64,000 bases of DNA from Acidimicrobiales bacterium (lineage in GTDB: Bacteria; Actinomycetota; Acidimicrobiia; Acidimicrobiales; SHLQ01). The DNA is taken from NCBI GenBank assembly GCA_020628865.1, contig JAHDEJ010000005.1, positions 1 to 64,000 of the forward strand. The letters run 5' to 3'. The notes beneath the pieces are model-generated. The model ran no database searches, was not told the origin of the DNA, and worked only from the letters and a program-made list of their open reading frames with translations. Below, piece by piece: positions 1-3,798 of the stretch. The first letter of the stretch is position 1. Each line of letters opens with the position of its first letter. A program made the position numbers and the translations under genes.

Positions 1-210
1 GCGGGCGGCCTTCTTCCGGGCTTTGCGGGCGACGGAGCGTTCCCACTTTCGTTGGCGGCTCCGGCAGGCCTTGCGACAGAACTGGTGGTTCGACGTCTTC
101 GCCTCAAACAGGCCCTCACACCGCCAATAGCCACACACCTGCAACCGTTCCGGATCGAACTCCTCATCGAAGTCGTCCGGCATGTCGCCGGGCAACGGCT
201 CCAGGCTCAT
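1..210 (-). CDS. Small Cys-containing (putative zinc-finger) protein, 3' end outside window
   Basis: This is a partial minus-strand gene that runs off the left edge; 70 residues are visible. Its ATG (208-210) overlaps the TGA of the upstream helicase fragment in an ATGA arrangement, which suggests translational coupling. The visible part has an acidic N-terminus, then a CGYWRC pair about residues 34-39, then an FCRKACR pair about residues 53-59, then a strongly basic Arg/Lys tail. The four cysteines arranged as C-x4-C and C-x3-C suggest a small zinc-binding module, possibly nucleic-acid binding because of the basic tail. No family is recognised with confidence. It is probably co-expressed with the two helicase pieces. 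Confidence 0.6.
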   Translation of the reverse strand, partial: MSLEPLPGDMPDDFDEEFDPERLQVCGYWRCEGLFEAKTSNHQFCRKACRSRQRKWERSVARKARKKAAR

Positions 211-1010
211 GCGGGTCCAGTCAGAACGTCCGGCAACGCACCCGTGTGTGCAACGAGTAGGTGATCGGTTGTGCGGGTCAACGCCACGTACAGCAGGCTC
301 AGCCCGTTCTCCTCCTCGAGGATCCGGCCCGGTTCGATCACGATCACCGAATCGAACTCCATGCCCTTCGCCGCCCGTGCGGACAACCACGACACACGGG
401 CGTCCGTCTCCTCGGGAGCCAACGCCCCGATCGTGGCGTCGGGTCCCACAACGGCCACGCGACCCTCATCCAACCGGTCGAGCGCCGCATCGACCAGCCC
501 ATGCACCTCGGAAAGCTTCGAGATGGCCAAAAACTCCACCGGATGTCCCGAGGACCGAATCGCGTTCGGTGCCTCGAGGTCCGGCGCCAACTGCGCAAGC
601 ACACGCGCCGCAACCTCGCCGACCTCCTCCGGACTCCGGTAGTTGGTCGACAGATCGAACCGTGGCACCTCACCCAGCTCCGGCGGCAGAATGTCCGACC
701 AGGCGCCCGGCTCGCCGGTCGAACGCTGCGCCAGGTCGCCGACGATGGTCATCGAATGGCCGCGAGCACGACGCGTCACCATCCGCCATTGCATCGGCGT
801 GAGGTCCTGCGCCTCGTCCACGATCACGTGACCGAACCGCCATGCCCGTTCCCCCGCGGCCCGTTCCTCGAGCGACACCGAGTTGGTGAGCTCCAGATAG
901 TCCTGGGCTTCGAGCTCAGCGATGGGGAAGCCGTCGGGGTCCGACACGACCTCACCCGTCACCTCGTCCTGCACCGGCCACGTGGCGGGTGTGGCATCGA
1001 AATCGCTCAT
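207..1010 (-). CDS. C-terminal half of a split UvrD/HelR-like helicase (Walker B, motifs V-VI)
   Basis: The 267-residue product carries the second half of a superfamily 1 helicase of the HelR/UvrD type. DEAQD (Walker B) is at about residues 65-69, followed by the MTIVGDLAQR motif III region. AKGMEFDSVIV and LYVALTRTT near the C-terminus are the late helicase motifs. No Walker A is present; that motif lies in the adjacent upstream gene. I chose ATG at 1008-1010 because it overlaps the upstream stop as ATGA and has a GAGGG Shine-Dalgarno sequence 9 nt before it. An alternative ATG at 1043 gives an Arg-rich leader that looks non-coding. Known relatives are single proteins of roughly 700-770 residues (family knowledge), so this is a split gene, either genuine or through a frameshift. 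Confidence 0.8.
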   Translation of the reverse strand: MSDFDATPATWPVQDEVTGEVVSDPDGFPIAELEAQDYLELTNSVSLEERAAGERAWRFGHVIVDEAQDLTPMQWRMVTRRARGHSMTIVGDLAQRSTGEPGAWSDILPPELGEVPRFDLSTNYRSPEEVGEVAARVLAQLAPDLEAPNAIRSSGHPVEFLAISKLSEVHGLVDAALDRLDEGRVAVVGPDATIGALAPEETDARVSWLSARAAKGMEFDSVIVIEPGRILEEENGLSLLYVALTRTTDHLLVAHTGALPDVLTGPA

Positions 1011-2713
1011 CGCCAACCGCCCTCTTCGTCGCCTTCTCGCCATGCGTCGAACGACTCCACATCGTCCATCGCCAACTCGGACTCCTCGTCGGAATCCTCG
1101 TCGTCGTCCTCTTCGTCACCCGCCGCCTCCGCGAGCGTGAACACATCGTCCTCGTCCGCCACGATGTGTTCCATCTCTGCCTCGACGTCGAGCGCTTCGG
1201 ACTCGTCGCCCAACAGCCACAGCAGCTCATCGAGCAGCGGGATGTCTGCGTACTCCCACTTTCGTCGCCACAACTCCGCCTCGTCTGTCCGGTCCGTCGC
1301 CAGCAGTTCGAGCTCGGCATCCGACAGCTCGGCCACCCGACCCGCAGCAGACAGCAACGCCGACGACCCGAGCAGGTCGTTCAGTGCCTGCTCCGGAGAG
1401 AGCACCGGCCAGTGACGTTCCATGAACAAACGAATCTCCCGAGAGTTCGCCAGCTCGCCGACGATGTCGCCCCGGTCCTCGAACCCGGGTGCGTAGAGCT
1501 CAGCGGTCAACACTTCGAGGATGCGGCGACGGAACAACCCCGCCCCCGCGTTGTGCGTGGTTCGACGCTGCGCCTCTTCGTAGAAGCGACGGAGATCCTC
1601 CACGTCGACCCGCAGTCGACGGCTGCCGTACCAGGCATCGAGCGCCTTCTTCGGCCGGCGCTGCCGCAGCGCCACCGACTCGGCCAACAGCGCCGCCATG
1701 CGAATGCCGCCCTTGAGCGCGGCGACCGCTTCCGACGTGTCCGGCTGCTTGGACACGCCCGGATGCAGCTGGTCGGCCGTCACCGAAATGACCCCGCTCT
1801 CACCGAGCGACGGCAGCACGTTGGAGATGTAGGTGAGGAACTCGGGGCTCGGACCGACGATGAGCACACCGGTTTCGGCCAGTGCAGCACGATCTGCGTA
1901 GAGCAGATAGGCGGCTCGGTGCAGGGCCACGACCGTCTTGCCGGTACCGGGCCCTCCCTGCACCAGCAGCGGACCCTTGGCCGATGCCCGAATGATGGCG
2001 TCCTGTTCGGCCTGAATCGTCGCCACCACGGAACGCATGCGACCGTCCGACCGCTCGGCAAGCGCGGTCAACAAGGCCGCTTCACCTCGCAGCTGCAAAC
2101 CCTCCGCCACCACGTCCGGGTCGAAGACCTCGTCGCTGTAGTCGGTCAACTCGCCATCGGTGTAGTGGAGGTGCCGGCGATGTCGAACGTCGAGCGGATC
2201 CAACGGGGTCGCCCGGTAGAAGGGAGCAGCCGCCGCGGCGCGCCAGTCGATCATCAGCACGTCGTCGTCTTCGATGACGCTCATGCGACCGATGTAGTTC
2301 GTCTCCTCGGAGTCGGTGATCCGACCGAACGCCAGCGCTTCACCCGCCCGTTCGAGCTCGCGAACGCGCTTGAAGGCGAGCACCGCGCGCGCCGACGCCG
2401 CCCGAGCCGACGCCGCCTCGGCCGCGGCCTCGCCATCTTCATCGCCGGCCTCGGCCTCGGTTTCACGCGGGCCTTCTTCCGACAGGAAGACGGCCTCATC
2501 GGCCAGACCGGTGGCGTAGCGGCGGGAAGCATCGACGTGCGCCATGTGCGAAGCAGAGATCCGGCGCACGGCGGCACGTTCGACCTCGAGCTCACTGATG
2601 ATGTCGCCGTCGACGGCCTCGTCCTGCACCACTCCAGCCAACCACGTGTTGCACTGAAACCGGTGCCAACAGCGCGGGTCTCGCACAGATCGTCGCGTCT
2701 CGACGCTGAGCAT
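1007..2713 (-). CDS. N-terminal half of a split UvrD/HelR-like helicase (Walker A)
   Basis: The product (568 aa from ATG 2713) contains the first half of a HelR/UvrD-like ATPase. YIGRMSV-type and IDWRAAAAAPFYRA blocks precede GGPGTGKT (Walker A) at about residues 253-260, and a GPSPEFLTYISNVLPSLGE block follows. These blocks match HelR, the actinobacterial RNA polymerase-recycling helicase linked to rifamycin tolerance (established for the family). The protein stops after a very acidic linker (EEDDDEDSDEES) just before where DEAQD should come; that motif is in the next gene, overlapping by ATGA. The start is uncertain: ATG 2713 has an AGGAAAG sequence 9 nt upstream, while GTG 2632 would remove about 27 residues that look atypical. 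Confidence 0.8.
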   Translation of the reverse strand: MLSVETRRSVRDPRCWHRFQCNTWLAGVVQDEAVDGDIISELEVERAAVRRISASHMAHVDASRRYATGLADEAVFLSEEGPRETEAEAGDEDGEAAAEAASARAASARAVLAFKRVRELERAGEALAFGRITDSEETNYIGRMSVIEDDDVLMIDWRAAAAAPFYRATPLDPLDVRHRRHLHYTDGELTDYSDEVFDPDVVAEGLQLRGEAALLTALAERSDGRMRSVVATIQAEQDAIIRASAKGPLLVQGGPGTGKTVVALHRAAYLLYADRAALAETGVLIVGPSPEFLTYISNVLPSLGESGVISVTADQLHPGVSKQPDTSEAVAALKGGIRMAALLAESVALRQRRPKKALDAWYGSRRLRVDVEDLRRFYEEAQRRTTHNAGAGLFRRRILEVLTAELYAPGFEDRGDIVGELANSREIRLFMERHWPVLSPEQALNDLLGSSALLSAAGRVAELSDAELELLATDRTDEAELWRRKWEYADIPLLDELLWLLGDESEALDVEAEMEHIVADEDDVFTLAEAAGDEEDDDEDSDEESELAMDDVESFDAWREGDEEGGWR

Positions 2714-2838: not shown

Positions 2839-3798
2839 ATGAAGATCGGTTTCATCGGCCTCGGCAACGTCGGCGGAAAGCTCTCCGGTTCACTCGTGCG
2901 CAATGGCCTCGATGTCGTCGTGCGCGACCTCGACATGGCTGCCGCCCAACCGTTGCTCGACGCCGGCGCCACGTTCGGTGAATCGCCCAAGGCGATGGCC
3001 GAGGAATGCGACGCCGTCATCACGTGTCTCCCGTCCCCGGCCGCTTCCGCTGCGGTGCTCGAAGCCGAGGACGGCCTCCTCGCCGGCTTCGGACCGGGCA
3101 AGGTGTGGATGGAGATGTCCACCACGGACGAAGCCGAAGTGAAGCGCCTCGGTGCGCTCGTGAAGGCCACGGGCGCAGAGCCCGTCGACTGCCCGGTATC
3201 GGGCGGGTGCCACCGCGCCGCCACCGGCAACATCGCCATCTTCGCCGGTTGCGAGCGCGCCACCTTCGAACAGATCCTCCCCGTGCTCACCACCATGGGG
3301 CGGCGCATCCTCCACACGGGCGAGCTCGGCTCCGCCTCGATGCTGAAGGTGATGACCAACTACCTGGCGACGGCAAACCTCCTGACCGTGTGCGAGGCGC
3401 TCGTCACGTCGGCCGCCGCCGGCATGGACCTGAACACGACCTACGAGGCGATCGCCATCAGCAGCGGCAACTCGTTCGTTCACGAGACCGAGGGCCAGGT
3501 CATCCTCAACGGCAGCCGCGACATCAACTTCACGATGGATCTGGTCAAGAAGGACATCGGCCTCTTCCAGGAGATCGCCAACCGCCACGACGTGCCGCTC
3601 GAGATCAGCCCCGTGCTCATCGACATCTTCGACGACGGCATCGCCCGCTTCGGTGAACGCGAGTGGTCGCCGAACATCATCAAACGCCTCGAGGAGGCGA
3701 CCGGCCTCAGCATCCTCGCCCCCGGCTTCCCGCCGGAGATGACCGACGACGAACCCGAAGAAGCCGGCTACGAAGTCATCCCGAAGGGTCGTTCCTGA
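2839..3798 (+). CDS. NAD(P)-dependent beta-hydroxyacid dehydrogenase (3-hydroxyisobutyrate dehydrogenase family)
   Basis: The 319-residue protein has an N-terminal Rossmann motif (GFIGLGNVGGKL, residues 4-15). The substrate-binding signature DCPVSGGCHRAATG lies around residue 118, and MLKVMTNYL around 170 holds the conserved catalytic Lys and Asn. This pattern defines the 6-phosphogluconate/3-hydroxyisobutyrate dehydrogenase superfamily, which oxidises beta-hydroxyacids or reduces the semialdehydes. The exact substrate cannot be read from sequence. ATG 2839 is preceded by GAAGAAGGA. It lies one base upstream of a class V aminotransferase gene, so the pair probably forms an operon; a shared route through a semialdehyde or 2-oxo intermediate is inferred. 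It is divergent from the helicase. Confidence 0.88.
   Translation: MKIGFIGLGNVGGKLSGSLVRNGLDVVVRDLDMAAAQPLLDAGATFGESPKAMAEECDAVITCLPSPAASAAVLEAEDGLLAGFGPGKVWMEMSTTDEAEVKRLGALVKATGAEPVDCPVSGGCHRAATGNIAIFAGCERATFEQILPVLTTMGRRILHTGELGSASMLKVMTNYLATANLLTVCEALVTSAAAGMDLNTTYEAIAISSGNSFVHETEGQVILNGSRDINFTMDLVKKDIGLFQEIANRHDVPLEISPVLIDIFDDGIARFGEREWSPNIIKRLEEATGLSILAPGFPPEMTDDEPEEAGYEVIPKGRS

Follow-up and report, generated by a model that had tools for sequence, protein, structure and literature searches.

HelD of M. smegmatis, a class II protein (PDB 6yxu, 6yys, 6z11, 8q3i and 8qn8), carries its clamp-opening domain at residues 261-447 and its PCh-loop at residues 448-503, as described by Kouba and colleagues (PMC7749160). 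The tip of this loop, 482-DDED-485, lies at the active-site Mg of RNA polymerase (RNAP; PMC7749160), and acidic tips are described as displacing nucleic acid sterically and electrostatically in both HelD classes (PMC7749167). For M. smegmatis it has further been proposed that the PCh-loop may be drawn from the channel when NTP drives a movement of domain 1A (PMC11464796). HelD of B. subtilis, which belongs to class I, is also a helicase-like recycler and has domain 1A divided by an insertion, but it has no PCh-loop (PMC7749160) and matches the gene pair described below only weakly. The HelD literature that we covered deals with single-chain proteins, and the models for actinobacterial HelR (NF041254 and NF041258) are single-chain as well. 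A term search of a HelD class survey that covers Acidimicrobiia (PMC8655204) returned no split HelD gene, and the literature that we searched, which included few subscription journals, held no precedent for a helicase with Walker A and Walker B on two chains.

In the 64,000 nucleotides of DNA analysed here (the window), two minus-strand ORFs (2632/2713-1007 and 1010-207) encode a protein of the class II HelD/HelR type. It has the same collinear domain order as M. smegmatis HelD and shares with it Walker A, DEAQ, motifs III-VI, the clamp-opening domain and an acidic PCh-loop at the same place; however, M. smegmatis HelD is one chain with an uncut loop, whereas here there are two chains and the loop is cut. 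We consider it roughly 85% probable that the locus specifies a naturally two-subunit RNA-polymerase recycling protein of this type, a motor that would remove stalled RNAP from DNA, its coding sequence being divided within the PCh-loop segment and its two genes being adjacent and, across the relatives, mostly overlapping or abutting.

The N-terminal subunit, ORF1 (1007..2632, minus strand), comprises the N-terminal coiled coil, 1A-1 with the Walker A sequence GGPGTGKT (1934..1957, minus), the clamp-opening domain and the first half of the PCh-loop region, which forms a free acidic C-terminal tail (1010..1204, minus; 65 aa with 31 D/E and 2 K/R, by domain borders taken from PMC7749160). The C-terminal subunit, ORF2 (207..1010, minus; 267 aa), supplies the second half of the loop, 1A-2 with the Walker B sequence GHVIVDEAQD (804..833, minus), and 2A with the later helicase motifs, including motif VI, LYVALTRTTD (264..293, minus); it also carries GDLAQR, NYRSPEEV and KGMEFD. 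Close to its N-terminus stands DPDGFPIAELE (909..941, minus), akin to the xDGxPIxELEvD found near the ORF2 N-terminus in many split relatives. The SF1 ATPase motifs Walker A, DEAQ, III, IV, V and VI are thus all present but spread across two chains, with no DEAQ in ORF1 of the window and no Walker A in its ORF2. The stop of ORF1 (1009-1007) and the ATG of ORF2 share the tetranucleotide ATGA (1007..1010, minus), and a GAGGG site lies ~9 nt 5' of that ATG. In all these respects the pair is as the first-pass annotation had described it, coupled ORFs with Walker A in the first only and DEAQD plus the later motifs in the second. The start assigned there to the first ORF, ATG 2713, would add 27 unconserved residues; ORF1 probably starts at GTG 2632 or 2629, since in two relatives (L004 and L005) the open frame opens just upstream of the equivalent position. 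An in-frame ATG at 1043 would be an alternative start for ORF2, for which the relatives give no support. Across the genus, the motif WF(P)xxGV is found at the likely ORF1 start or immediately before it (window ~2632-2650, minus; L004-L010). In L005 every possible start codon lies downstream of the motif, which is perhaps a conserved DNA element.

Both halves find their best matches in the HelD/HelR superfamily, whose models are matched significantly over nearly their full length. On NF041254, ORF1 covers positions 53-481 and ORF2 positions 492-704, collinearly and without overlap, and on M. smegmatis HelD in the PDB the two align with residues 47-506 and 500-721, respectively; the former alignment places the clamp-opening insertion between Walker A and Walker B. 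Of the NCBIfam models, those for HelR (NF041254 and NF041258) rank among the best matches for each half and come first when the sequence is joined. For joined scoring we used a relative with a single in-frame stop (L109), translated through that stop, and it scores below the curated cut-offs (NF041254, 420 vs 750 bits; NF041258, 438 vs 1100; NF041465, 391 vs 1051); a naturally fused relative likewise falls short of the curated HelR and HelD cut-offs. The clade is thus a divergent branch, and its orthology with HelR is putative, so that the HelR-like assignment made earlier holds at the superfamily level, by profile and PDB matches, but not at the level of the HelR cut-offs. An AlphaFold model of the read-through L109 sequence, built from an alignment of 8 sequences, is of poor confidence (pLDDT 53, pTM 0.36), with the clamp-opening region as its best-modelled part; Foldseek ranked HelD first for this model, at low TM-scores, and these confidence values ruled the model out as evidence on the chain interface.

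A rifamycin-associated element lies upstream of HelR. Searching the window with one consensus pattern for this element gave no match at up to 3 mismatches. The genome of the window also encodes two HelD paralogues of the same superfamily (L002 and L003; ~38-42% identity), which unlike the present pair are single-chain and lack a PCh-loop, having 26-34 aa between LLDEA and DEAQD. In L115 (G032), also a HelD paralogue, the stretch from LLDEA to DEAQD that corresponds to the PCh-loop contains a zinc-ribbon-like motif, CPRCGSQLSVVRGSDASRLRCEYATCGREW.

That the break falls inside the PCh-loop follows from the HMMER alignment, in which residues 491-503 of the ORF1 product (P0001) align with M. smegmatis residues 436-448 and residue 37 of the ORF2 product (P0002) with residue 500, when these are set against the loop limits of 448-503. 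The "strongly acidic linker" noticed at the break in the first reading can therefore be named more precisely: it is the class II feature itself, the acidic PCh-loop between the clamp-opening domain and DEAQ, about twice as long as usual and interrupted by the gene break. The loop region averages 128 aa with a net charge of ~-33 in the split clade and 124 aa with -32 in its fused members, as against 63-68 aa and -8 to -14 in three actinomycete HelDs (~63 aa and ~-14 in L118, a close homologue of the M. smegmatis protein). The larger part of the loop usually lies in ORF1, and the acidity peak falls in the ORF1 part in 29 of the 31 split loci. Within the genus the ORF1 tail is conserved up to its stop (ExESYDxWREGDEE..W), with low pN in close pairs. 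A candidate equivalent of the DDED tip, picked out by eye, is LLDxDG near the ORF2 N-terminus, whereas sequence alignment puts the tip in the ORF1 part.

The first-pass annotation had suggested looking for the same split in close relatives, and it is there. Among 49 classified loci, 31 are split, 16 are fused (15 distinct, L112 and L089 being identical) and 2 are ended by contig edges. The adjacent ORF1/ORF2 pair occurs in these 31 loci from ~30 species and four families of one order, Acidimicrobiales, a name that we take from the named records of some of the contigs (four records). ORF2 is present wherever the contig continues, both loci without it (L009 and L086) ending at contig edges, and the two genes are never found apart in untruncated loci. 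DEAQ lies in ORF2 of all 31 split loci, and a pattern search found GGxGTGKT in ORF1 of 29 of them, with variants in L042 and L080. When the genus was searched, 10 of 11 genomes, the window's included, contained an orthologue (at least 64% identity, apart from the window itself); none of the 10 had an intact one, and in nine ORF2 was a separate frame. Wider searches placed orthologues in families f1, f17, f18 and f42 of the order, while a search with ORF2 at a strict cut-off in a sample of the class yielded them in f1 and f18 only, and a search in a sample of the phylum returned, besides the window, only intact HelDs in frames of 739-835 aa. A pattern scan of contigs gave at least four relatives among the matches listed.

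It had also been stated at the outset that relatives with an intact single ORF would speak against a natural split. Such relatives do exist, the 15 distinct fused loci all belonging to one family and retaining both the motifs and the long acidic loop, but on the tree they are interspersed with split ones, and the conservation of the split elsewhere stands.

The junction itself varies from species to species. ORF2 is in frame 0, 1 or 2 relative to ORF1 in 5, 10 and 16 split loci, respectively, and ORF1 ends with TGA, TAG or TAA in 22, 6 and 3. Apart from one locus, L084 (G271), the assigned ORF2 start lies between -13 and +19 nt of the last base of the stop, most commonly 3 nt before it (ATGA/GTGA, 13 loci) or 7 nt before it (6 loci), and an SD-like site precedes ORF2 in 17 of 30 loci. 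In L084, an insertion of ~120 nt comes after the ORF1 stop and the old start (TAATGGCGCAAGATCG), and beyond it ATGGCGCAAGATCG appears again and serves as the ORF2 start; the insertion is flanked by the repeated ORF2 start region, ATGGCGCAAGATCGTAT, and separates the genes. Counted simply after Nei and Gojobori in up to nine pairs per ORF, dN/dS is 0.04-0.25 in both ORFs, values to be read with the fact that dS exceeds 1 in all but one pair and is mostly saturated. Both halves are, by this measure, under purifying selection in the pairs tested.

These data bear on two explanations that would make the split only apparent. The first is that the break stems from an error in sequencing or assembly, or from the decay of a pseudogene. 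In its favor, the window's genome is an assembly of 113 contigs with the locus at a contig end, but the split recurs in 31 loci of four families and both halves are selectively maintained in the tested pairs, such that we give this explanation practically no credence. The second is that programmed ribosomal frameshifting or stop read-through yields a single full-length protein. The window has ORF2 in the -1 frame, with an overlap of ~100 nt between both frames upstream of the ORF1 stop, and the five loci with ORF2 in frame 0 stand behind a single stop; both arrangements are consistent with recoding. However, the event required would differ by species (-1, +1, or read-through of TAG or TAA), there is no slippery heptamer in the ORF1/ORF2 overlap of the window, the L084 insertion with its stops could not be bypassed in this way, and start codons are similarly placed near the ORF1 stop. 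We therefore regard recoding as very unlikely. Because frame relation, stop codon and spacing vary over ~30 species, and L084 adds its insertion, neither a sequencing indel nor one programmed frameshift explains the pattern. For the same reason, of the two options left by the first reading, a natural two-subunit helicase or a fixed frameshift, the former is strongly supported and the latter, as a single event, fails.

How the split and fused states are related was examined on a tree from which the loop was left out and whose root was set on intact HelDs, the outgroups including actinomycete proteins with a PCh-loop; it replaced a first tree that had included the loop region and loopless outgroups. 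Here, no fewer than 3 changes between split and fused are required (3-5 over bootstraps), the fused locus L081 is nested in an otherwise split group with support of 97/96, and a tree forced to keep the split rows in one group is worse by 42 log-likelihood units (AU p=0.013). This rejects a history with one split that was never reversed, meaning that the states have switched more than once; this may reflect either one split with later re-fusions or several splits, the backbone of the tree being weak. Such interconversion suggests that the cut is well tolerated, and since the loop is flexible besides, cutting it probably has little selective effect.

The two-subunit explanation nevertheless also allows a version that assigns a function to the cut: the freed loop halves could provide a hyperacidic tail that mimics nucleic acid and can enter the RNAP channel with no closed loop to be threaded, or loop withdrawal could be uncoupled from the ATPase. 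The maintenance of the ORF1 tail up to its stop within the genus and the location of the acidity peak in ORF1 would agree with this. The latter is, however, weak evidence given that ORF1 usually holds most of the loop, and the fused relatives, whose loops are equal in length and charge and whose state interconverts with the split one, indicate that the cut is unnecessary for the loop properties. We thus treat an adaptive split as a tentative idea that is somewhat unlikely to be correct.

In the two-subunit protein that we favor, both chains would be made from one mRNA, via coupled or independent initiation, and would associate through the divided 1A domain; that they form one complex is inferred. 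Of domain 1A, chain 1 would supply the Walker A half, along with the coiled coil and the clamp-opening domain, and chain 2 the Walker B half, along with domain 2A, such that one ATP site would be composed of Walker A from chain 1 and of Walker B and the later motifs from chain 2. In RNAP, the coiled coil of chain 1 would then occupy the secondary channel, and the clamp-opening domain of this chain the primary channel. The two hyperacidic halves of the loop would have become free tails and would clear nucleic acid from around the active site, displacing it both sterically and electrostatically in the manner of the intact class II loop of M. smegmatis. It could alternatively be argued that the chains have separate functions, with chain 1 alone blocking RNAP by means of its tail, its N-terminal domain and its clamp-opening domain while chain 2 regulates it. 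Chain 1 does have all the RNAP-channel elements save half of the loop, and the N-terminal domain of B. subtilis HelD is reported to protect RNAP from rifampicin (PMC12802891). Yet with the 1A Rossmann domain divided, neither chain should fold fully alone, and the chains never occur apart in untruncated loci, which makes a separation of functions improbable.

Since nature has made this cut in the loop that reaches the RNAP active site, at a point separating Walker A from Walker B, the question of loop withdrawal becomes testable. With the loop cut, the covalent link from 1A to the loop is lost on one side; this link is broken in the split species and intact in close relatives, which allows a direct comparison between them. 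The ATP site would be split over separately translated chains, and two free hyperacidic tails might clear the polymerase with no covalent link to an ATPase half; that the cut is functional in this sense is, in our estimation, rather doubtful. At a practical level, annotation pipelines may label both halves as partial helicases.

As for the surroundings of the pair, a third ORF (~1-213, minus), whose ATG overlaps the ORF2 stop, encodes a small basic Cys-rich product (CGYWRCEG...CRKACRSR) and runs off the contig end, base 1 of the window being base 1 of the contig. The earlier suggestion that it belongs with the pair was rejected, since its Cys motif is absent downstream of every other locus with available downstream sequence. 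Compact HelD-like frames of ~545-600 aa (L024 in G002, G122:C146, G153:C457, G267:C93 and G268:C18) occur in several genomes and match P0001 only up to about residue 318; they are probably HelDs whose clamp-opening region is reduced. On the other side of the pair, a divergent NAD-binding dehydrogenase-like gene (MKIGFIGLGNVGGKLSGSLVRNG), which is not a neighbour in L111, adjoins ORF1 both in the window (2839-3798, plus strand) and in L110 (3915-4874, minus strand).
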